From: Methanofastidiosum sp.
Lineage (GTDB): Archaea; Methanobacteriota_B; Thermococci; Methanofastidiosales; Methanofastidiosaceae
Length of the DNA: 64,000 nucleotides
Assembly: GCA_013178285.1 (NCBI GenBank)
Contig: JABLXD010000001.1
Location: 62,001 to 126,000 of the forward strand
Direction: 5' to 3'
A program made the position numbers and the translations under genes. Numbering within the stretch: the first letter of the stretch is position 1; each line of letters begins with the position of its first letter. Positions 2,599-12,449 of the stretch are shown here, in pieces. The notes below the pieces were generated by a model. It was given only the letters and a program-made list of their open reading frames with translations, did not search any database and was not told the DNA's origin.

Positions 2599-3279
2599 AT
2601 GAAGATACATATCGCTCTTTTAGGCGAAAATCCAAATCATATAAAGACATCATTTAGTAGGTTTGAAAGAATAGATAAGCTTTTACTTATAACAAGTGAG
2701 AAGTTCAAACAGAATGCAATAACTATACAAAAGAACTATTCAGATTTACTTGGTACCGATATATCTTATCACATAATTGATCCGTTCAACAAAGACAGCG
2801 TCCTTGGAATCTCGGATATAATAAAAAAAATAAGAATGGAAAATAAAGATGCCGATATCCTGATGAACATAACAGGTGGGACTAATCTAATGGCAGGAAT
2901 TGCCCTCTCGGCAGCTTTTATGATAGGTTGCGAGGAGGTATACTACTTACTTGATCCATCAAAAACTAATAAAGATCAAAGTGACCTAATAAAGATTCCA
3001 ATACCAAGGATTATTTTTCCTGAGATCATAAGAGATAAGCAGAAGGAGCTGCTTATGGCAATTAGTAATAAGCTTAAGCAGGACGATATTGAATGCATAA
3101 CTAACATCAGAAAATTCGCTGATGAGTTCTACCATAATAAGAAAGAGAATCCTGTCCAAACTATAATGGTCCATCTCAAGCCTCTTGAAGAAATGAATCT
3201 CATCAGAATAAACAGAGATTCGAAGGAGCGGAGGATAGAGCTAACAGAGGCAGGAAAAGTCATGCTGAGGTTCCTATGA
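2599..3279 (+). CDS. CARF-domain winged-helix regulator (first of a pair)
   Basis: This 226-residue protein has an N-terminal Rossmann-like CARF domain (residues about 1-140) and a C-terminal winged helix (about 150-226, ending in the typical EMNLIRINRDSKERRIELTE wing). The signature NITGGTN at 90-96, followed by a small-residue helix, is the ligand loop seen in CARF/Csa3-type proteins. The archaeal DUF6293-type regulators look similar. CARF domains bind cyclic oligoadenylates or related nucleotides, usually in type III CRISPR signalling. Here there are no cas genes or repeats in the window. It overlaps the next CARF gene (ATGA at 3276-3279), so the two are cotranslated and may heterodimerise. 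What it regulates is unknown. Confidence 0.85.
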   Translation: MKIHIALLGENPNHIKTSFSRFERIDKLLLITSEKFKQNAITIQKNYSDLLGTDISYHIIDPFNKDSVLGISDIIKKIRMENKDADILMNITGGTNLMAGIALSAAFMIGCEEVYYLLDPSKTNKDQSDLIKIPIPRIIFPEIIRDKQKELLMAISNKLKQDDIECITNIRKFADEFYHNKKENPVQTIMVHLKPLEEMNLIRINRDSKERRIELTEAGKVMLRFL

Positions 3280-3857
3280 TGAATGTTCACATAGCGCCAT
3301 CAGGTTCTGTGGGCCCTATAGAAGATGCCATAAAATACTTTAAGATTGACAAGCTTTACATAATAACAAGCGAAGAGAAAAAGCGGGATTTTGAAAAAAT
3401 AAAACAAATGCCCATCGAGATACTAGTCACCGATGCCTTTGACTTTCAGGCCATAGTGGATTCGATTACAGGCATATACAGCAAGGAAAAAGATGAAAAG
3501 ATCTATATCAACATTACTGGGGGGACGAATGTAATGTCTGTAGCCTCACATGTTTCTGCAATGTTCTTGGGATTGGAGTGTTATTACATGCCAATAAATC
3601 AGGGGCCCATCTACCCCGGAGTTCCCACTTTGTTTAAAAATCTAAAAGACGAAGACATACAGCTTATAAAAAATTCTTCTTCTAAGGGTACTCTTTATTA
3701 CAACAGAAGCAAAGCCCGTCGAGTAAACAAACTGAAAAGACTTGGGATATTTGAAATTAAAAGCAAGCAAGATAAGCATGGTAGAAAGATTAATTACGCA
3801 GAACCTACGCCCATCGGGAAATTCTTTTTGGAAATAATAAAAAAATCAAATATATAG
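3276..3857 (+). CDS. CARF-domain winged-helix regulator (second of a pair)
   Basis: This 193-residue paralogue of the preceding product begins MMNVHIAPSGS and has the CARF ligand loop NITGGTNVMS at about 79-88. The C-terminal part (about 126-193) contains a recognition-helix-like stretch (SKARRVNKLKRLG) and a wing, but the DNA-binding module is shorter than in its neighbour. The ATG overlaps the upstream stop; a second ATG follows immediately at 3279. The pair could form a heterodimer with one complete and one reduced winged helix. CARF assignment is solid on the loop motif. The ligand and target promoter are not visible. Confidence 0.82.
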   Translation: MMNVHIAPSGSVGPIEDAIKYFKIDKLYIITSEEKKRDFEKIKQMPIEILVTDAFDFQAIVDSITGIYSKEKDEKIYINITGGTNVMSVASHVSAMFLGLECYYMPINQGPIYPGVPTLFKNLKDEDIQLIKNSSSKGTLYYNRSKARRVNKLKRLGIFEIKSKQDKHGRKINYAEPTPIGKFFLEIIKKSNI

Positions 3858-3894
3858 TTTTGGTAGTTATTAGAGAGCCAGTTAGATGTTAGGA

Positions 3895-4038
3895 TCAAGC
3901 ACTTTGGAAGTGCTGCTCAATTAGTTCAGTGTAGGATTCAGAGAGCTCTACCAAGAGTTTCATGAGCTCCTTTTTCGAGGAGCTATTGAAGGCTGCTTCA
4001 AGCCTTCTTATTTGGTAGTTAAAATTTGTTGCGCTCAT
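3895..4038 (-). CDS. Possible 47-residue helical small protein
   Basis: An ATG at 4036-4038 (reverse) opens 47 codons ending in TGA. The product starts MSATNFNYQIRRLEAAF and is amphipathic and helical, rich in Leu, Glu and Ser. Its DNA is less AT-biased than the flanking spacer, which is the main reason to take it seriously. It lies in an otherwise geneless gap of about 300 bp and is convergent with the CARF operon. The ribosome site is weak. It could be an unannotated small gene, a relic, or chance. Confidence 0.35.
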   Translation of the reverse strand: MSATNFNYQIRRLEAAFNSSSKKELMKLLVELSESYTELIEQHFQSA

Positions 4039-4166
4039 GGCAAATCACGTACTCATATGGGCCAGGATTATATTAAAAAATTTTTATATATATTAAATAA
4101 ATAAAATTTAATATAAATAAGAATATTCTAATATATTTTTTGCATCTCTTTATTTGGGGTTTATTT

Positions 4167-4463
4167 ATGGATTATGAAAAACTATTCAAGGAATTTATGA
4201 ATAACGGCGTTATAGTTGTTGGATGCGTATGCCTTACGAAAGAAGGCGATATATTCAGTAGAGTGATATCCTCAAGTATTATTATAGATGTTTTAAAGTC
4301 AAGGCCAGATTCCGCCATCAAGATACAAGATGGGCTGTACGATTCTAGAAAACACTTATGCCAGCAGCTTGATGAGCTTATGGATCACATAGCCAATGGG
4401 TGCAACATCCCCATTGGCAGAAGCCCGGCCAAATATAATGTTAAAACCATATCGCATCCCTAA
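4167..4463 (+). CDS. Hypothetical protein, 98 residues
   Basis: I prefer the ATG at 4167 (MDYEKLFKEFMNNG) because GGGG lies 7 bases upstream; a TTG at 4140 would add nine unlikely residues. The product looks soluble, with an internal hydrophobic stretch (GVIVVGCVCLTKEGDIFSR) that resembles a beta hairpin of an alpha/beta fold. I recognise no family. It is 6 bases ahead of the TPR gene and probably shares its transcript. Confidence 0.6.
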   Translation: MDYEKLFKEFMNNGVIVVGCVCLTKEGDIFSRVISSSIIIDVLKSRPDSAIKIQDGLYDSRKHLCQQLDELMDHIANGCNIPIGRSPAKYNVKTISHP

Positions 4464-4484
4464 AAAACAATGAGAGAGATTATC

Positions 4485-5150
4485 ATGAAAGAATATGAGA
4501 AATATCTTGAAGAGGGAAAGTCCTTGTTAGAAAGCAGGAGATATAGTGAGGCCTTAAGGAAGCTCAATAAATCCATTAATATTAATCGTAACTGTGCCGA
4601 AGCCTATTGCAAGAGGGGGATTGCACTAAAAAAACTAAATAAAGACAATTATGCTTTACAGGATTTCGATAATGCAATTATTTTAGATCCAAACCTAGGG
4701 GAGGCCTATTTAGAAAAGGGGTTATTGTTAAAAAAATTTGGTCATTCGAATATAAATGAATACTTGGATTTGGCTATAGAAAAAGACCCCAAACTAGGCA
4801 AAGCCTATTCTTACAGGGGAATGTATTATTTTAATACTGGAAAATATGAAAAGGCCTACGAGGATATTAACAAGGCCTTGGAGTTGCCTGGAGCTTCCCC
4901 TAAATTGTATTATTACAGAGGGGTAATCCTCTACTTAAGAGGCGATATAGAAAATTCCTTTAAGGATTTCAACAAAGCGATTGAATTAGACCCTAAATGG
5001 TATGAGCCATACCGTGCTAGAGCCTTATGTTATTCTAAAAAAGGCCAAATAGAATTGGCGGTAAGAGACATTGAAGTATACAATAGATCTAAAATCACAT
5101 CTAGATCCGATTATCCGTGGAGACAAAGGCACTATTCTAGGCCCTATTAA
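4485..5150 (+). CDS. TPR-repeat protein
   Basis: About 221 residues with roughly five tandem TPR units covering nearly the whole chain (landmarks AEAYCKRGIALKKL, GEAYLEKGLLLKKFG, GKAYSYRGMYYF, PKLYYYRGVILYL, PYRARALCYSKKGQ). It is a soluble scaffold with a basic, aromatic tail. The ATG at 4485 has GAGAGA about 6 bases upstream; an ATG at 4470 is an alternative adding five residues. It follows the 98-residue hypothetical gene by a few bases. Partner unknown. Confidence 0.8.
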   Translation: MKEYEKYLEEGKSLLESRRYSEALRKLNKSININRNCAEAYCKRGIALKKLNKDNYALQDFDNAIILDPNLGEAYLEKGLLLKKFGHSNINEYLDLAIEKDPKLGKAYSYRGMYYFNTGKYEKAYEDINKALELPGASPKLYYYRGVILYLRGDIENSFKDFNKAIELDPKWYEPYRARALCYSKKGQIELAVRDIEVYNRSKITSRSDYPWRQRHYSRPY

Positions 5151-5511
5151 ATATCTTAATGCTTACGAAAATCTTTCTACAAAGTATTAAAAAAAGCTTA
5201 CAGAAATCTAATTGAAGAAGTTGAAAAACTATTGGAATAAAATAATTTAATATAATTAAAACGATTTATTAATCATGATTATACTCAACTTTGGAATAAA
5301 TAACCGAGTAGGACTAAAAATATAGAATTAATTACTATCATATTATTGTTGTTTTTTAAAAAAATAGATAAATTTATATATTATTTTCGTAAATAAAGTA
5401 AATTAAGAAGAATAGATATATGCTAACAAATATTAGATTTTTCATTTTTATTGAAAAATCTATCTAATAGGTATTTGTAGTTTTCAAAATTACATATATC
5501 GGGAGCATACA
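5151..5511. other. Gene-free spacer upstream of nurA
   Basis: Just after the TPR stop, short out-of-frame pieces (AYENLSTKY at about 5161, KAYRNLIEEVEKLLE ending in TAA at 5240) look like a decayed coding end, but the evidence is thin. Further on there is a TATA-like stretch (AAATTTATATAT near 5371) and a perfect inverted repeat at 5434-5462. Nothing else convincing is seen. Confidence 0.45.
5434..5462. repeat. 11-bp perfect inverted repeat ahead of nurA
   Basis: TAGATTTTTCA at 5434-5444 is repeated as its exact reverse complement at 5452-5462 with a 7-nt loop of mostly T. It sits about 50 bp before the nurA ATG and about 60 bp after a TATA-like box, so it would lie in the 5' leader. It could be an operator or an RNA hairpin. 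Confidence 0.6.
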
Positions 5512-6603
5512 ATGTCTTTAGAAACAATAGACCTTGAAAATGTAAAAAAAGAAATAAAAAAAGCGACTAAATATGAATTCCCAAAAATAGAAAAGCTCAG
5601 GGCTATTGTTAGAAATCTTAGTATTAATGAATTAAATTACAGACAGTGTCATGCAATTGCTCCTGTAGCAACTGATGGCGGGGAAAACAAACTCTATTTT
5701 GAGCCAATTAGTATTGATATAATAAGAGTTGTAGATTCTGAAGGCAAAGAGCACGTTCAAAAGATAATACCTATTTCAGCAGACTATGAGGTATACAAAA
5801 ATCTTTTTTATGAAACTCCAATACTAAAGAAGTTTCTAGATCGACTTTCAATAAGCTATGACGATGTATCTTATATGCTGCCAAATAAGGATGACAAAGA
5901 TGTAGAAGAGTCTAAAGTGGCACAGTATGTGGGAGTTTTTAGAGAAATCCTTGAATGGGCAGTTTTACTTGAAATGGCTTGGAATCCTGGCCCTTCAAAA
6001 GTTCTTTTGATGCGAGATGGCCTATTGAGAACGGCTAAATTCAAACCGAATACAGTGTCAAGGCTAGCTGATTCTTTTGAACAGGCCCATAAAGAAAATA
6101 ATTCAATGTTGATTGGAGTTGCCAAACACTCAAAAGTTCTGAATTATTTATCCCTGGCCCTTAATATTGAAGAAACTTTTATGAATGATTATCCCTGTTT
6201 TTGTGAGGTCCCTCTTGAGATAGAAAAGTCAAGCTATCCATGGTATAACAACTGGGTTTCAAACAAAAGAATATTTGGAAAAATGCATCTAGTAAAATTT
6301 AGCCCTAAACCTGATGGGGTAGTGTTCCCAGTAGATATACCTCCGTGGCTTATGGGAAAAAGAAAAGAAGTACTTGAATATGCAGCTGAAACTGCAAAAA
6401 CTTCTTTCCCATTAATTGGCTACCCTTACCCATTAATCAAAGCACATGAAAATGCTATGCTTGGAGGATTAGAAATGGAAATGTTATACGATTATCTAAT
6501 TAAAGCAGTTTTAGAAGAGTATGATGGAAAGAAAATAGAAAAAATATTGGCATACATTACATTAGGGAAAACTTTGTCTAGGGGCGGAGGAAACTATGAA
6601 TAG
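5512..6603 (+). CDS. nurA: NurA-family 5'-3' nuclease
   Basis: The 363-residue product has the NurA core: D55-G-G in a VATDGG strand, acidic residues E145/E148, D169 in LLMRDGLLR, K205-H-S-K in the IGVAKHSK motif, and H312 near the end in PYPLIKAHENAM. In the family these residues bind two Mn2+ ions and the chain dimerises on the HerA hexamer to resect DNA ends. The gene is followed with overlap by herA, the classic NurA-HerA pair. Unlike the usual archaeal repair operon, no mre11 or rad50 is adjacent; the neighbours are CARF, glycosylase-like and nuclease-like genes. It may therefore be a dedicated defence copy rather than the housekeeping repair enzyme. Confidence 0.88.
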   Translation: MSLETIDLENVKKEIKKATKYEFPKIEKLRAIVRNLSINELNYRQCHAIAPVATDGGENKLYFEPISIDIIRVVDSEGKEHVQKIIPISADYEVYKNLFYETPILKKFLDRLSISYDDVSYMLPNKDDKDVEESKVAQYVGVFREILEWAVLLEMAWNPGPSKVLLMRDGLLRTAKFKPNTVSRLADSFEQAHKENNSMLIGVAKHSKVLNYLSLALNIEETFMNDYPCFCEVPLEIEKSSYPWYNNWVSNKRIFGKMHLVKFSPKPDGVVFPVDIPPWLMGKRKEVLEYAAETAKTSFPLIGYPYPLIKAHENAMLGGLEMEMLYDYLIKAVLEEYDGKKIEKILAYITLGKTLSRGGGNYE

Positions 6604-8661
6604 AATCATCAAGCGAAAGATAGGATTTTTAGAGGATTTACAGAATCTGGATTAGAATTCAAGGCAGATATAGTTACACCTTACAATGTCCAAAATCATC
6701 CAATAATTGGCACCTTTCTTTTAGTATCTTTAGATCGAGAAACAGCACTATTGGGTAGAATAACAAAATTTTACCCAGTAGGAATAATGTCTTCAATGCA
6801 AGGTGATGATTACCTTGCACAAATGGGCAGAATGGAAAGAGAGATACCTGAAGACCTAAAAGAATCAAAGCTAAGATACAATGTCAGCATTAGATTATTG
6901 GGCATAATTTCTAGAAAACATGACAAATTTGAATATTCACCAAGCATAAGAAAACTTCCTCATCTTGGAGCTTGGGTTGGAGTTCCAACTGAAGAAGTAA
7001 TGCAGTATATTTGCGAAATTGGGGTAAAAGGAACCTCTCCTGCTTTAATTGGATACATGTCATTTGGAGATATTGTATATGATGGTTTGATGCAGTCACC
7101 TCAAATGCCAATAAAATTTGATATTGCTCAATTAGTTGGAAAAAGAACTTATGTTTTTGCACGTGCAGGATATGGTAAATCAAATCTAATCAAGTTACTA
7201 ATAACTAGATTATATGAAAATAATCAGCCTGTTGGAATGATAATATTTGATCCTGAAGGCGAATATGGATTTAGGGATAAAAAGGGGAGGCCTGGACTAC
7301 TTGATATCCCATTTCTAAGAGAAAAAATTTTAGTATTTACCAATAGGGATCTCAAAAACACTGAATATAAAAAATGGATTGGTGGAAGAGTAAAGATTAA
7401 TTTAGCCGATCTTCACCCTTCAAGTGTAGTAAGTATGTGTGTCAGCCCGGAAAAACAGGACACAGTCTTTGCAAATAGAGTTAGAGGGGCTAGCCCTGAA
7501 AACTGGAATAAGCTATTACAGCTTTTAGAAAAGGATGGGTATAGGGCTGAAGATTCTGAAATAGAGGAAATCCTCCATCTTAAGAATACAAGTGACGCTG
7601 CCATAATTAGTGCTGTTAAAAATAATATTGTTCCAATAGTAAAAACTCTACATGATAGTAAATCACAACTAATTGAACAGATAAAATACCAACTTAAAAA
7701 AGAAAGGATAGTCATAATAGATATTTCTCAATTATCTTCAAAACATGGAGAATGGATATCTGGATTGATACTAGATCTTATCTTAAAACATAACATAGAC
7801 AATTTCATAACAGGATCAAGCGATATGTTGATCCCTACAATTGCAGTTATTGAAGAGGCCCAGTCAGTTCTATCTAAATATGCAAGTGAAAGTTCTCCTT
7901 TTGTATCGTGGACAAAAGAGGGGAGAAAATATGAACTAGGCTCTATCTTAGTCACACAGCAACCTGGAGCAATTTCATCTAAATTATTAAGTCAAGGGGA
8001 CAATTTTTTTGCGTTTCATTTGATTAGTGCTAGTGATCTAAAAGAATTACAAAAAGTCAATTCAAATTTCTCTGATGACATTCTATCATTGATTCTTAAT
8101 GAACCAATAAAGGGAAACGCTTACTTTTGGTCTGCACCTGACCAGCCTTTTGTAATATCTTCCAGGATTCTAAATTTTGAGAAGTATGCGGAAGATACAA
8201 TTGGACTCCAAAAAGGGGCCCCTGCCCAAGAAACAGAATTTAAAACTCCTGCTGAGGAATTCAAAGAAGAAATGCCTGGGTTTGATAAAGAGTATACAAA
8301 AATAGTAATGGAGATAATACTAAATCAAAGCAATGTTCCAGTTTATGATAATGTGATTTTAGACAATGAGCCAAGAGAGGATCTACTTGCATTAAATAAA
8401 TGGAATTTGTTACTTACTGTTGGGGAATCTCTTTCTGGGGAGTTAGAAAGACTATACATAGAGTTCTTTGGAGATAATAAGAAAAAAGCTAAAGATAGCT
8501 CTTTATTAGATGTGCTCGAAGAGCGTTCAATTCTTGGGAAACCGTCAAACGCTTACAATGATGAAAGGAAATCATTTTTGTTACTATCAAAGCAAGAGAT
8601 ACTAAAATATAAGCCTAAAAAGATATTCAGAAATTCGATTTCTTTGAAATCAAAAGGATAA
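6596..8661 (+). CDS. herA: HerA-family DNA translocase ATPase, N-terminal frameshift
   Basis: The ATPase core is clear: Walker A ARAGYGKSN, the following FDPEGEYG strand, Walker B IAVIEEAQ, and the sensor SILVTQQPGAIS. Family members form hexamers that pump dsDNA to NurA. The obvious start is the ATG at 6596, preceded by GGAGG (6587-6591) and overlapping the nurA stop, but it reads only 19 codons before a stop. The HAS-barrel N-terminus (RIFRGFTESGLEFKADIVTP) continues in the -1 frame, open from 6604 and merging with the body. The first usual start in that frame is a TTG at 6751, which would delete about 50 conserved residues. One missing base near 6610-6625 explains everything; alternatives are sequencing error, true inactivation or recoding. 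Confidence 0.82.
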
Positions 8662-8778
8662 TAACATAAAGAAATAATTAATTATAAGATATTAAACTAA
8701 GTGTCCAATATTAACCGAAAAGAAATATAATAAAAACATAATACGTATAATAGAATTAACTATTGGAGGGGTATTATT

Positions 8779-9666
8779 ATTGAAGAATCTAATTTTAATA
8801 TTGCAAAATTAATATCAGAGTATAATATAGGCTACAAAGATGAATTTTTGATAAAAAAAGAAGACTTGTTTGGAAATAAAGAAAAGATTCTCAAGGATAA
8901 CACTCAAGCTATCTTATTTATGTTTAAATATATTTTTTATCAAGGGAGATCTGATAAAACTTCATATAATTTTAGAAAAAAAGCCGAAACTGTATTAAAT
9001 AATTATAATTGGAAGACAAAAAAGATAAAAAAAAGGATATATTCAAATTCTTTAAAAGAGAAAGAACGTTATAAACTACTGGACCCCGAATATAAAGATT
9101 TACTAAATAAATTAAAAAACGAGGGAGTTAATAAGCAAAGAGATCGCTATATGGTCGTAGATTTAATCAATTTTATTCAAAGTAACTGTGAAGATTATAA
9201 TATTATGGGGTATATAATTGAAAATATTAAATCAGGTGAAATAAAGAAAGTATATAGTGAATTGGATAGTATAATCTCAATAGGCCATAAAATAGCTTCT
9301 TTTATTCTAAGAGATATAGTTTATATATATAATTTAGAAGATGAATATCTAAAATCTGACGAATATGCATTTGTTTTTCCTTTGGATACTTGGGTTGTAA
9401 AGGTATCCAATAGTATAGGTATTTTAACAGAGAAAGAAAAAAAGCAATTAAAAAACTTAAATGGACTTCCAGATAACACAAAATTATCCCTATCTGCCTC
9501 AATTGCTGAAAGATTAAACACTAACGAAATAAATCCAATTCATTACAATCAAGGTGCATGGTATTTTGGTTCATGGATCGGGAATATTGGTCAGTCAGAA
9601 AAATTCGGGGACTTCATCAAGTATTTATTAAGTAAAAATATTAGTGTAAAAGATATGGAAAGATAG
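8779..9666 (+). CDS. HhH-GPD-like DNA glycosylase superfamily protein, apparent ATT start
   Basis: About 295 residues. Counting from the first internal TTG (8848), a helix-hairpin-helix loop SIGHKIASFILRDI places K148, and FPLDTWV places D180, the Lys/Asp pair that defines base-excision glycosylase/lyases such as OGG1 and AGOG. A late INPIHYNQGAWYFGS block also fits. A strong GGAGGGG (8765-8771) precedes three ATT codons (8773, 8776, 8779) and the frame EESNFNIAKLISEYN; no ATG, GTG or TTG exists between the upstream stop at 8731 and 8848, so ATT initiation is inferred. Very AT-rich. It lies directly after herA and before a nuclease-like gene, suggesting recognition of modified or damaged DNA. 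Confidence 0.65.
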   Translation: MEESNFNIAKLISEYNIGYKDEFLIKKEDLFGNKEKILKDNTQAILFMFKYIFYQGRSDKTSYNFRKKAETVLNNYNWKTKKIKKRIYSNSLKEKERYKLLDPEYKDLLNKLKNEGVNKQRDRYMVVDLINFIQSNCEDYNIMGYIIENIKSGEIKKVYSELDSIISIGHKIASFILRDIVYIYNLEDEYLKSDEYAFVFPLDTWVVKVSNSIGILTEKEKKQLKNLNGLPDNTKLSLSASIAERLNTNEINPIHYNQGAWYFGSWIGNIGQSEKFGDFIKYLLSKNISVKDMER

Positions 9667-9794
9667 AAATTTAGAAATTAATTTACTCATTTCTCTATTA
9701 CTTGTAAATCTCTCTAATTCTATTTTGGAAAACGATTACCAAAACCTTAAATATAGATTAACAAAATTTTATTGGTCGAAAAATAGGTGGTAAT

Positions 9795-10418
9795 ATGTTT
9801 TCTCTTGAAGGTATAATGTCAGAGTTAAGTAAAGAGCGCCGAATATTTCACTCAGAAGCTGATTTCCAACATGCTCTTGCTATGAAAATCTCTAAGATTT
9901 ATCCTAAATTAAATATAAGGGTAGAATACAATCCATGGGGAGAGGAAGATAATCAACATATAGATCTTTGGATAATTGATAAACAAGAAGAGTTCGCTAT
10001 TGAATTAAAATACAAAAAGAGACAAATTCTATACGAAGAAAACGGTGAAAAATTCATTTTAAACAGCCAACATGCGCAGGATATAGCAAGGTATGATTTT
10101 TGTAAGGATATTAAAAAACTCGAATCAATAAAGAGTAATAAAGATAATTTTACTAAATACGTCATATTTTTAACTAACGATCATCTGTACTGGGATTTAT
10201 CAAATTACAACACTAATGATGATAATTTTAGGATCCACGATGGGAAGGAGTTAACTGGAACCCTGAAGTGGCACTTGAATGCTTCTGAAGGTACTAAAAA
10301 TAATAGGGATGAAGATATCTCTTTGAATGGCAAGTACAAATTAAAATGGAATGACTACTCAGATATACCTAATCAAAAGAACGGCAAGTTCAGGTATCTC
10401 TTAGTCAAAACTAGTTAA
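9795..10418 (+). CDS. PD-(D/E)XK nuclease-like protein
   Basis: The 207-residue chain contains a restriction-endonuclease-fold signature: E21 in the first helix (FHSEADFQHALAMKI), D57 in HIDLWI and E70-L-K72 in FAIELKYK, the classical E...D...ExK metal site. The C-terminal half is Asn/Asp-rich and could bind target or partner. It is probably a DNA endonuclease; substrate unknown, and no methyltransferase partner is adjacent. The ATG at 9795 follows GGTGG; an internal ATG at 9816 is possible. It abuts the repeat-protein gene by one base, so they form a transcription unit behind nurA-herA-glycosylase. Confidence 0.72.
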   Translation: MFSLEGIMSELSKERRIFHSEADFQHALAMKISKIYPKLNIRVEYNPWGEEDNQHIDLWIIDKQEEFAIELKYKKRQILYEENGEKFILNSQHAQDIARYDFCKDIKKLESIKSNKDNFTKYVIFLTNDHLYWDLSNYNTNDDNFRIHDGKELTGTLKWHLNASEGTKNNRDEDISLNGKYKLKWNDYSDIPNQKNGKFRYLLVKTS

Positions 10419-10428
10419 AGTGACCAAT

Positions 10429-11367
10429 ATGCCCTATGAGTATGACAAGCACGGCTTTAATAAAAATGGCATCCATAAGGATACCGGGACTAGATTTAAT
10501 CCTTCAGGCCACGACATAGATGGCTATGATGAAAGAGGGTTTAATGCCTTCCTAAAACACAAGGACACAGGTACTGAGTACGATACAGATGGTTTTGACT
10601 TTTCTGGGTGGAATAAAGAAGGGATACACAAGTACACCAGAACTAAATTTGACAAAGACGGCCACGACAAGAGGGGCTTTGACAAGGAGGGCATTAACTT
10701 TCACACAGGGACGAGATTTGACAGTTTTGGCCTTGACATAGATTTTTGTGACGAATATGGATTTATTTTTCATGAGATCCACAGAGATACTGGAACTCGC
10801 TACGATCCGGATGGGTACGACTTCTTTGGGTGGAGCAAGGAAGGTATTAACAGGGACACAAAGACAAAGTACAATAAGCTAGGCTATGACATAGATGGCT
10901 ATGATCCTAATGGCTTTAACAGAAAAGGGATTCACAAAGGCACCAATACCAGATACAATAAAGAAGGGTATGATCTAGAAGGGTTTGACAGAAAGGGAAT
11001 CCACATAGATACAGGCGCATGTTTTGATTTGTTTGGGTATGATAAGAAAGGTTATGACAGAAAAGGCTTTGATAAAAAAGGCTTTGACATGGAGGGCATC
11101 CACAGAGACACAAATACCAAATATGATAAAATGGGGTTTGATAAAGAAGGCTTGCACATGAAAACACTGTTGCCTTACAATTCAGAAGGATACGACCAAG
11201 ACGGGTTTGATATTGGGAAATTTGATAGACTTGGCTTTGATAGGGAAGGTGTCAACATATTCACAGGGACAAAGTACGGCCCTGACGGTTTTGATATGAA
11301 TGGCCTTAACTACGAAGGAAAGTCAAGAGAAGAGATAGAAGCAGAGGATGATGACCCGCATAGATAA
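10429..11367 (+). CDS. Tandem-repeat protein, 11 units of a GIHxDTGTxYxxxGYDxxGFD type
   Basis: About 312 residues made almost wholly of 22-35-residue repeats. Each unit has a G-(I/V/L)-(H/N)-x-x-T-x-T-x-(Y/F) segment followed by one to four short (Y/F)-D-x-x-G-(Y/F/W) turns. I count eleven copies of the T-x-T-x-aromatic core, beginning GIHKDTGTRF and ending GVNIFTGTKY, then an acidic tail. Regular Gly/Asp/aromatic turns suggest a beta-solenoid or calcium/ligand-binding rod. No signal peptide or membrane segment. A GTG at 10420 is possible, but GTGA there fits as ribosome site for the ATG at 10429. Codon use is visibly more GC-rich than the nuclease gene just upstream, implying a different history. 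Confidence 0.78.
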   Translation: MPYEYDKHGFNKNGIHKDTGTRFNPSGHDIDGYDERGFNAFLKHKDTGTEYDTDGFDFSGWNKEGIHKYTRTKFDKDGHDKRGFDKEGINFHTGTRFDSFGLDIDFCDEYGFIFHEIHRDTGTRYDPDGYDFFGWSKEGINRDTKTKYNKLGYDIDGYDPNGFNRKGIHKGTNTRYNKEGYDLEGFDRKGIHIDTGACFDLFGYDKKGYDRKGFDKKGFDMEGIHRDTNTKYDKMGFDKEGLHMKTLLPYNSEGYDQDGFDIGKFDRLGFDREGVNIFTGTKYGPDGFDMNGLNYEGKSREEIEAEDDDPHR

Positions 11368-11843: not shown

Positions 11844-12449
11844 TTAGAAAAATAACTTCTCCAAACAGTCCTTGCAGTAGGCCTTATTCCTATTATCGAT
11901 ATCCTTTACATCTTTAGCAATGTTCATAGCACATCCTGGAGTGTTACATGCTTCAAGCCCAAACAGGTATCCAAAAACATGCAACGCTTCCTTTATTGTC
12001 TCGTCCTTTTTTAGAGAAGTGTCTTTACGGCTGTCCTTTAAGTTAGCTGTTGAAACTATTCCAATGTCGCCACCCTTCTCAGCTTCGCCGAATAGAATCC
12101 CATCGTGGCCCTCCCTGTAAATGTCGAAATCTGTGAGCATTATTATTTTAAGAAAGTTAGGTGATTTGACTATTTTACTTGTATCTTCCATTCTTTGCCT
12201 GCCGAAAAGGAAAAGAGCATTGGTACTGTATTTGCCCACTCTGGGATTATAGGCAGTGCTCGGGATATTGTAATTAAATATCCTCTCCTCTGAGTCTTTA
12301 CTTTGAGAAGGTAAACTGAAAAAACATTTTGCTTCAATTCCAACTGCATCATATACTAGTTTTTGGAATTCCTCCTTGAAGCTACGCAAGAACTCTTCAT
12401 CTAAATTCCCTATCGACACAAGCCTGATATTAAGCTTAGAATATACCAT
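11844..12449 (-). CDS. Archaemetzincin-like protein with degenerate protease site
   Basis: The 201-residue chain has the archaemetzincin length and its ending EALHxFGxLFGLxxC....CxM...CxxC. Family members carry HExxHxxGxxHC, binding catalytic zinc, plus a four-Cys structural zinc site. Here the catalytic stretch reads HVFGYLFGLEAC: Glu is Val, the second His is Tyr and the third His is Ala, so only one ligand remains. The structural cysteines (CNTPGCAM and CKDC, 16 residues apart) are intact. The fold should be retained without peptidase activity, implying a binding role. It lies upstream of the small TPR gene on the same strand. Start ATG at 12449. Confidence 0.82.
   Translation of the reverse strand: MVYSKLNIRLVSIGNLDEEFLRSFKEEFQKLVYDAVGIEAKCFFSLPSQSKDSEERIFNYNIPSTAYNPRVGKYSTNALFLFGRQRMEDTSKIVKSPNFLKIIMLTDFDIYREGHDGILFGEAEKGGDIGIVSTANLKDSRKDTSLKKDETIKEALHVFGYLFGLEACNTPGCAMNIAKDVKDIDNRNKAYCKDCLEKLFF

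Follow-up and report, generated by a model that had tools for sequence, protein, structure and literature searches.

The window analysed here is a stretch of 64,000 nucleotides from the archaeon Methanofastidiosum sp. (genome G000, contig C1, positions 62001-126000, from an assembly of 2.1 Mb in 102 contigs that is 97% complete), and between its positions 2599 and 11367 lie nine open frames, all on the + strand, which include neighbouring genes for a NurA-family nuclease and a HerA-type DNA translocase. We propose that this nurA-herA pair is probably a Tdp-like restriction nuclease pair, set in a patchwork island that has no methyltransferase, and that it either depends on a methyltransferase encoded elsewhere or is decaying. 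In the relatives of the pair a DNA methyltransferase gene accompanies those of the nuclease-pump, and thus the family is most likely a restriction system.

TdpABC is found in Thermus, where TdpC marks DNA with phosphorothioates and TdpAB, which these marks hold off, degrades DNA that lacks them. Its solved structures (PDB 8wet, 8wfd and 8y1k), in which TdpA is a HerA-like translocase and TdpB a nuclease, were compared with the window proteins. Among solved structures the window HerA matched TdpA at E=3.8e-27 and Sulfolobus HerA (SsoHerA) only at 1.4e-11, and a two-sequence profile of the window HerA reached TdpA at E=6.8e-29, while a profile of the window NurA matched TdpB alone (8wet_G, E=4e-6). 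The same genome holds a complete mre11-rad50-herA-nurA set on contig C14, where the HerA has Sulfolobus HerA as its best solved match, and because this set sits elsewhere the window pair is not the repair pair. Contig C51 carries a third NurA-HerA pair (L006 233-3620 and 4608-5528), whose HerA, too, is best matched by TdpA. From these comparisons we place the window NurA-HerA outside the repair copies, in a separate clade nearest to TdpA and TdpB. An earlier interpretation of the island made from its letters alone (hereafter the sequence-only reading) had suggested looking for a second NurA-HerA with mre11-rad50, which is indeed present on C14; its concern that the window pair might be the sole copy and adjoin mre11-rad50 does not apply, given the C14 set and the C51 pair.

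The clade was retrieved with a query in which the window HerA was aligned to the HerA of another archaeal genome (G142); a scan of genome contigs with a single HerA protein returned no match. It comprises 48 bacterial loci from at least 14 phyla and one viral contig, in addition to G142, and identity within it is about 40%. When the 865 predicted proteins were clustered, the only widely recurrent genes were those for HerA (median 704 amino acids), NurA (382 amino acids) and a DNA methyltransferase (379 amino acids). The nurA and herA genes are adjacent or overlapping in the clade loci, with gaps mostly of -4 to +20 nucleotides, and the methyltransferase lies no more than 3 kb away, usually touching, in 30 of the 33 loci whose flanks each reach at least 2.5 kb. 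The enzyme is of the N6_N4 type (PF01555), with a D12 type instead in Campylobacterota and one cyanobacterium.

The surroundings of this cassette support a link between the clade and genes of defence and modification, and to that extent the defence role that the sequence-only reading had given to NurA-HerA is upheld. In the viral contig IMGVR_UViG_3300027968_000132 (L069, from IMG/VR) the whole cassette, at 3636-8091, appears to lie between terminase-like and portal-like genes, the flanks having been read by eye. The archaeal cassette of G142 (L019 2643-15131) adjoins a DUF6079 ATPase and a 934-amino-acid DNA methylase and resembles a larger BREX-related defence block. In three Bacteroidota (Elizabethkingia miricola, L022 7522-14594; L025; L027) the genes after the cassette encode an AAA ATPase and a protein of about 300 amino acids that are Septu-like by reading, and type III restriction-modification-like genes are also among the clade neighbours, whose identities are partly by reading. 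Flanking proteins of 1000-1200 amino acids were considered as type IIG enzymes, as in the Thermus element ICEth1, and generally are not: many are spurious frames of high-GC DNA and some are type III restriction-modification-like or DUF1156-like methylases. The clade HerA has no close model in PADLOC-DB or NCBIfam (best 76 and 67 bits, with NCBIfam cut-offs of at least 800), the clade NurA has nothing there past a chance-level pAgo match, and our search of the open literature found no paper describing the clade as defence.

The window departs from this pattern in that neither an N6_N4 nor a D12 methyltransferase is present within 3 kb of its nurA-herA. Searching the whole genome with the cassette methyltransferase gave no close homologue, just short and weak motif-level matches. 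A TdpC-like phosphorothioation enzyme is likewise absent among the window neighbours; the lone PF01507 (PAPS-reductase-family) gene of the genome is on contig C65, where it adjoins a ribonucleotide-reductase-like frame, and therefore no TdpC-like partner was found.

The two genes of the pair keep their catalytic residues, and NurA retains the clade-invariant D55, E148, W149, D169-G170, K205 and Y304-P305. All of the herA homologues compared (about 30 N-termini) open with MxLFPxxxxxGIFRGFxEGGLEF, in its extended form MxLFPxxxxxGIFRGFxEGGLEFHAD, and the equivalent start in the window is the ATG at 6596, within the 3' end of nurA (ATGAATAG). A herA start at 6751 is therefore not borne out, and nurA and herA are overlapping genes (6596-6603), as in relatives. 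From this ATG herA reads MNRIIKRKIGF and then, in another frame, FRGFTESGLEFKAD, so that there is a one-base frame difference at a run of T, downstream of which the frame is 6604-8661. An assembly error, a real mutation or a programmed shift could each account for the break. Upstream of nurA, the AT-rich gap is presumed to be the start of the nurA-herA transcription unit, with a putative promoter. The region 5349-5480, with its TATA-like stretch and its inverted repeats rich in A and T, is a possible operator for the CARF winged-helix protein encoded further upstream.

The coordinates of these and the other features of the island are collected below. The frames run in the order CARF, CARF, a 107-amino-acid frame, TPR, NurA, HerA, a protein of 272 amino acids (here HhH), a protein of 207 amino acids (here ExK) and a repeat protein. 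Pfam, PADLOC and NCBIfam back the CARF, TPR, NurA and HerA assignments; their match to the 207-amino-acid protein is weak, and for the 272-amino-acid and repeat proteins there is no convincing one. The membership that the sequence-only reading had listed thus stands for the CARF pair, TPR, NurA, HerA, the PD-(D/E)XK motif and the repeat protein, but its HhH-GPD assignment is without model support. It was also right that the genes share a strand, several with overlaps or one-base gaps (the CARF pair overlaps by 4 bases, and the repeat protein begins 1 base after ExK) and that cotranscription is not certain. The block consists of at least three pieces of transcription-unit size. The AT-rich spacer in front of nurA measures 361 bp, that in front of HhH about 120-190 bp and that in front of ExK 128 bp; spacers of about 118-361 bp split the block, and nothing seen in the sequence of 2599-11367 shows one operon. 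Just past the island, on the - strand at 11844-12449, is an archaemetzincin-like peptidase (PF07998, 62 bits).

Features of the island, in coordinates of the window
Feature	Position	Strand	Support or remark
CARF protein, C-terminal winged helix (DUF6293/Csa3-like)	2599..3279	+	PADLOC CARF3 PDLC01866 E=2.1e-39; CARF_Card1 36 bits
Second CARF protein	3276..3857	+	HFX_2341_N 44 bits; CARF3 E=1.2e-24; 4-base overlap with first
TPR protein	4470..5150	+	TPR_2 84 bits
AT-rich gap before nurA	5151..5511	+	TATA-like stretch ~5372, inverted repeat 5349-5396
nurA, NurA-family nuclease of TdpB-like clade	5512..6603	+	PF09376 30 bits, cut-off 21
herA, DNA translocase (predicted hexamer) of TdpA-like clade	6596..8661	+	PF01935 81 bits
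T run where the herA frame changes	6626..6630	+	comparison with homologue N-termini
HhH protein, HhH-GPD-like by residues only	8848..9666	+	272 amino acids; likely start near 8779
ExK, small PD-(D/E)XK nuclease, separate mobile family	9795..10418	+	207 amino acids; D...ELK motif
Gly/Asp/Tyr-rich tandem-repeat protein	10420..11367	+	no Pfam/PADLOC/NCBIfam family

Recurrent linkage, the check proposed in the sequence-only reading itself, was used to ask whether the island genes are partners of the pair. A tblastn search with both CARF proteins, the 107-amino-acid frame, the TPR protein, HhH, ExK, the repeat protein and the 687-amino-acid TPR protein upstream placed none of them at any of the 50 NurA-HerA loci, and the claim of partnership for the island genes therefore fails.

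No model of Pfam, PADLOC, NCBIfam or PHROGs fits the HhH protein convincingly. The open frame extends upstream as far as about 8779, and a GGAGGGG stands near 8765. Residues K148, R155, P178, D180, G236 and W238 are invariant in six homologues, and the protein resembles AGOG and OGG1 in a P-x-D motif, an all-helical predicted fold and a Lys-Asp spacing (K148/D180) of 32, which is that of AGOG sequences, a motif that is weak when taken alone. It differs from these enzymes in that comparison by sequence, by profile and by structure gave no significant match: its profile found nothing among solved structures, hhalign against 20 AGOGs scored below shuffled controls, and although Foldseek of the AlphaFold2 model (predicted local distance difference test score, pLDDT, 77) listed AGOG first and OGG1 next, this was at E of 0.75 or above. 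AGOG itself is present in class-level relatives of the host, as in Thermococcaceae. Homologues of HhH were found in G005, where two copies lie inverted close to an integrase, in G148 (one) and on two Haloquadratum plasmids, with no NurA-HerA beside them, and none was found in viral contigs and phages. The glycosylase-like label given by the sequence-only reading thus has an AGOG-like Lys-Asp spacing on its side but no profile match, and we treat HhH-GPD-like as a lead, not a result.

In ExK, D57 and E70-L71-K72 are invariant among viral homologues and nearly so in a plasmid set, and its AlphaFold2 model (pLDDT 90.7) has HincII and EcoRV as nearest folds, at a weak E of about 0.007-0.05. Homologues adjoin capsid and portal genes of prophages (L117 4968-5609; L086 6001-6630; L088 5980-6609), placed as if they were cargo of phage structural modules, and others are within BREX-5 loci that Halorarius halobius and Halocatena salina carry on plasmids (L089 6001-6642; L091 6010-6654). 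A distant relative in G004, another genome from the genus (L084, C115, 119-3633), has a BsaWI-type restriction enzyme and two N6_N4 methyltransferases as its neighbours. By these neighbourhoods ExK is defence-flavoured, yet independent of NurA-HerA. Matches to the repeat protein were all of a generic repeat type and came from Cetobacterium, Fusobacterium and Gordonia plasmids.

Both CARF proteins have a Pfam CARF_Card1 match above cut-off; HFX_2341_N is above cut-off in the second only, and DUF6293_C, at 26.7 bits, falls just under it in the first. No homologue of the first CARF protein was found in 60 relatives at E<=1e-8. No match to the Cas10 palm domain (PF22335) was found in the genome, in a search confined to that domain, and therefore no source of cyclic oligoadenylate was found for the CARF pair. 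Upstream, the long TPR proteins at 407-2470 of the window (- strand, 687 amino acids) and at L008 7611-9659 (- strand, 682 amino acids) share the C-terminal EELRKKLEI and are apparent tandem paralogues. Beside a TPR frame, also upstream, is a 401-amino-acid frame (L008 5019-6224, - strand) that has a helicase C-terminus by reading and a weak RE_endonuc match, and is probably a truncated restriction subunit.

By analogy with TdpAB, DUF4297-HerA and the biochemistry of NurA-HerA, members of the clade most likely work as follows. HerA, which is TdpA-like, would form a hexameric ring and pump double-stranded DNA into the TdpB-like NurA, where the nuclease would digest it. In the relatives, host DNA bearing the methyl mark would be neither loaded nor translocated, and foreign DNA lacking it would be degraded. 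The window copy would use a methyltransferase encoded elsewhere or, given the break in the herA frame, may be decaying, and the CARF pair, HhH, ExK and the repeat protein would be independently acquired genes of the island.

Other readings of the island have to be set against this one. One, along the lines of the sequence-only reading, is a single multi-gene defence system in which HhH recognises or excises modified foreign bases, degradation of the DNA falls to NurA-HerA and ExK, and regulation to the CARF pair. The shared strand and short gaps across the island, the AGOG-like distance between Lys and Asp of HhH and the fact that HhH and ExK occupy the methyltransferase position speak for it, and in Sulfolobus nurA-herA expression goes up when the CARF winged-helix regulator Csa3b is overexpressed (PMC7480081). 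We nevertheless think it quite unlikely, as homologues of HhH, ExK, the CARF, TPR and repeat proteins are missing from all 50 loci, as HhH and ExK are found elsewhere without NurA-HerA (among genomes of the genus, HhH in G005 and an ExK relative in G004), as no Cas10 palm domain was found in the genome and as gaps of about 118-361 bp part the pieces; the glycosylase-like, ExK, repeat and CARF proteins gain no support from linkage as partners of NurA-HerA. Very unlikely, in our judgement, is a version in which NurA-HerA-methyltransferase is an uncatalogued, widespread restriction system with base methylation as its self-mark, and the window methyltransferase has been replaced by HhH as a Lys/Asp glycosylase-lyase-like protein that would tell self from foreign by base excision. 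We give hardly any credence to the pair as a second DNA-repair set: end resection is the role of the NurA and HerA families as such, but the complete repair set is located on C14, the best solved matches are TdpA and TdpB rather than SsoHerA, and the relatives are tied to methyltransferases and defence-type genes, not to mre11-rad50.

Export of DNA between cells, as by TdtA and NurA of ICEth1, would be another function for such a pair. ICEth1 carries the same kinds of genes, and in it deletion of tdtA abolishes DNA donation and deletion of nurA cuts it by 4-5 orders of magnitude (PMC5365140). However, TdtA is a protein of 568 amino acids with 31% identity to the canonical Thermus HerA-like TTC0147 (PMC5365140), against about 700 amino acids for the clade HerA, no integrase lies beside the window pair, and the related cassette within a phage contig fits cargo defence better, so we hold export to be unlikely. 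A dead or dying island, with herA frameshifted, the methyltransferase lost and the neighbours debris of mobile elements, is a possibility of some substance, if a doubtful one. The frame difference at 6626-6630, the absence of a methyltransferase near the pair and of a close homologue in the genome, low identity at clade-invariant positions and the shortened 401-amino-acid frame upstream, with its helicase C-terminus-like part and endonuclease domain, are consistent with it; on the other side, all other frames are open, NurA and HerA retain their catalytic residues, and a lone homopolymer indel in a metagenome-assembled genome can be an error. This reading overlaps with that of a Tdp-like restriction pair, as it concerns the state of the window copy and not the function of the family. 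Several points weigh against the restriction pair itself. The C51 pair has a PF01555 (N6_N4) methyltransferase about 1 kb off, on the opposite strand, and with the genome 97% complete in 102 contigs a methyltransferase could be absent from the assembly. Assembly error may explain the herA frame break. The window HerA keeps 136 of 203 clade-invariant positions, one-third being lost, and it is divergent, with a very long branch in the HerA tree, because of which its exact position there was not used as evidence. Since a comparable Thermus gene set serves DNA donation (PMC5365140), transfer rather than defence is possible. Weighing these, we still favour the Tdp-like restriction pair as the probable explanation.

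The window copy is a poor and possibly broken example, and the main interest is in the cassette of its relatives. Should this cassette prove to restrict phage, the Tdp principle of a modification-gated DNA pump and nuclease would apply to ordinary base methylation as well, and the NurA-HerA pairs that some genomes have beyond the repair set would be explained. Its carriers include named cultured strains, for example Thermovorax subterraneus and Sphingobacterium paucimobilis, and it is thus directly testable.

Among known systems, repair NurA-HerA (mre11-rad50-herA-nurA) shares the two protein superfamilies with the window pair, but it has a separate locus in this genome and the window HerA is nearer to TdpA. 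DUF4297-HerA is a proven phage defence of HerA and a nuclease (PMC11291478) and is alike in having a HerA hexamer with a partner nuclease; it differs in that this nuclease is DUF4297, of the PD-(D/E)XK type, and not NurA, in that no methyltransferase is described and in that it acts by abortive infection (PMC11291478). No Pfam match to a DUF4297 or Sir2 partner was found in the nine window proteins. ICEth1 encodes a type IIG restriction enzyme, NurA (377 amino acids), the HerA-like TdtA and an N4-N6 methylase (410 amino acids) (PMC5365140), so that, compared by description, the tdtA operon has the same order of NurA, HerA-like ATPase and N4-N6 methylase, with the restriction enzyme upstream; TdtA is shorter and near to a canonical HerA-like protein, and its function is DNA donation. 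A plasmid search bearing on whether TdtA belongs to the clade came back empty. The closest likeness is to TdpABC, an adjacent two-gene pump and nuclease whose TdpA and TdpB are the best matches of the window HerA and NurA. The clade HerA is longer, at about 700 amino acids against 586 for TdpA, and in place of a phosphorothioation enzyme the relatives of the window pair carry a DNA methyltransferase, the window itself having neither alongside.

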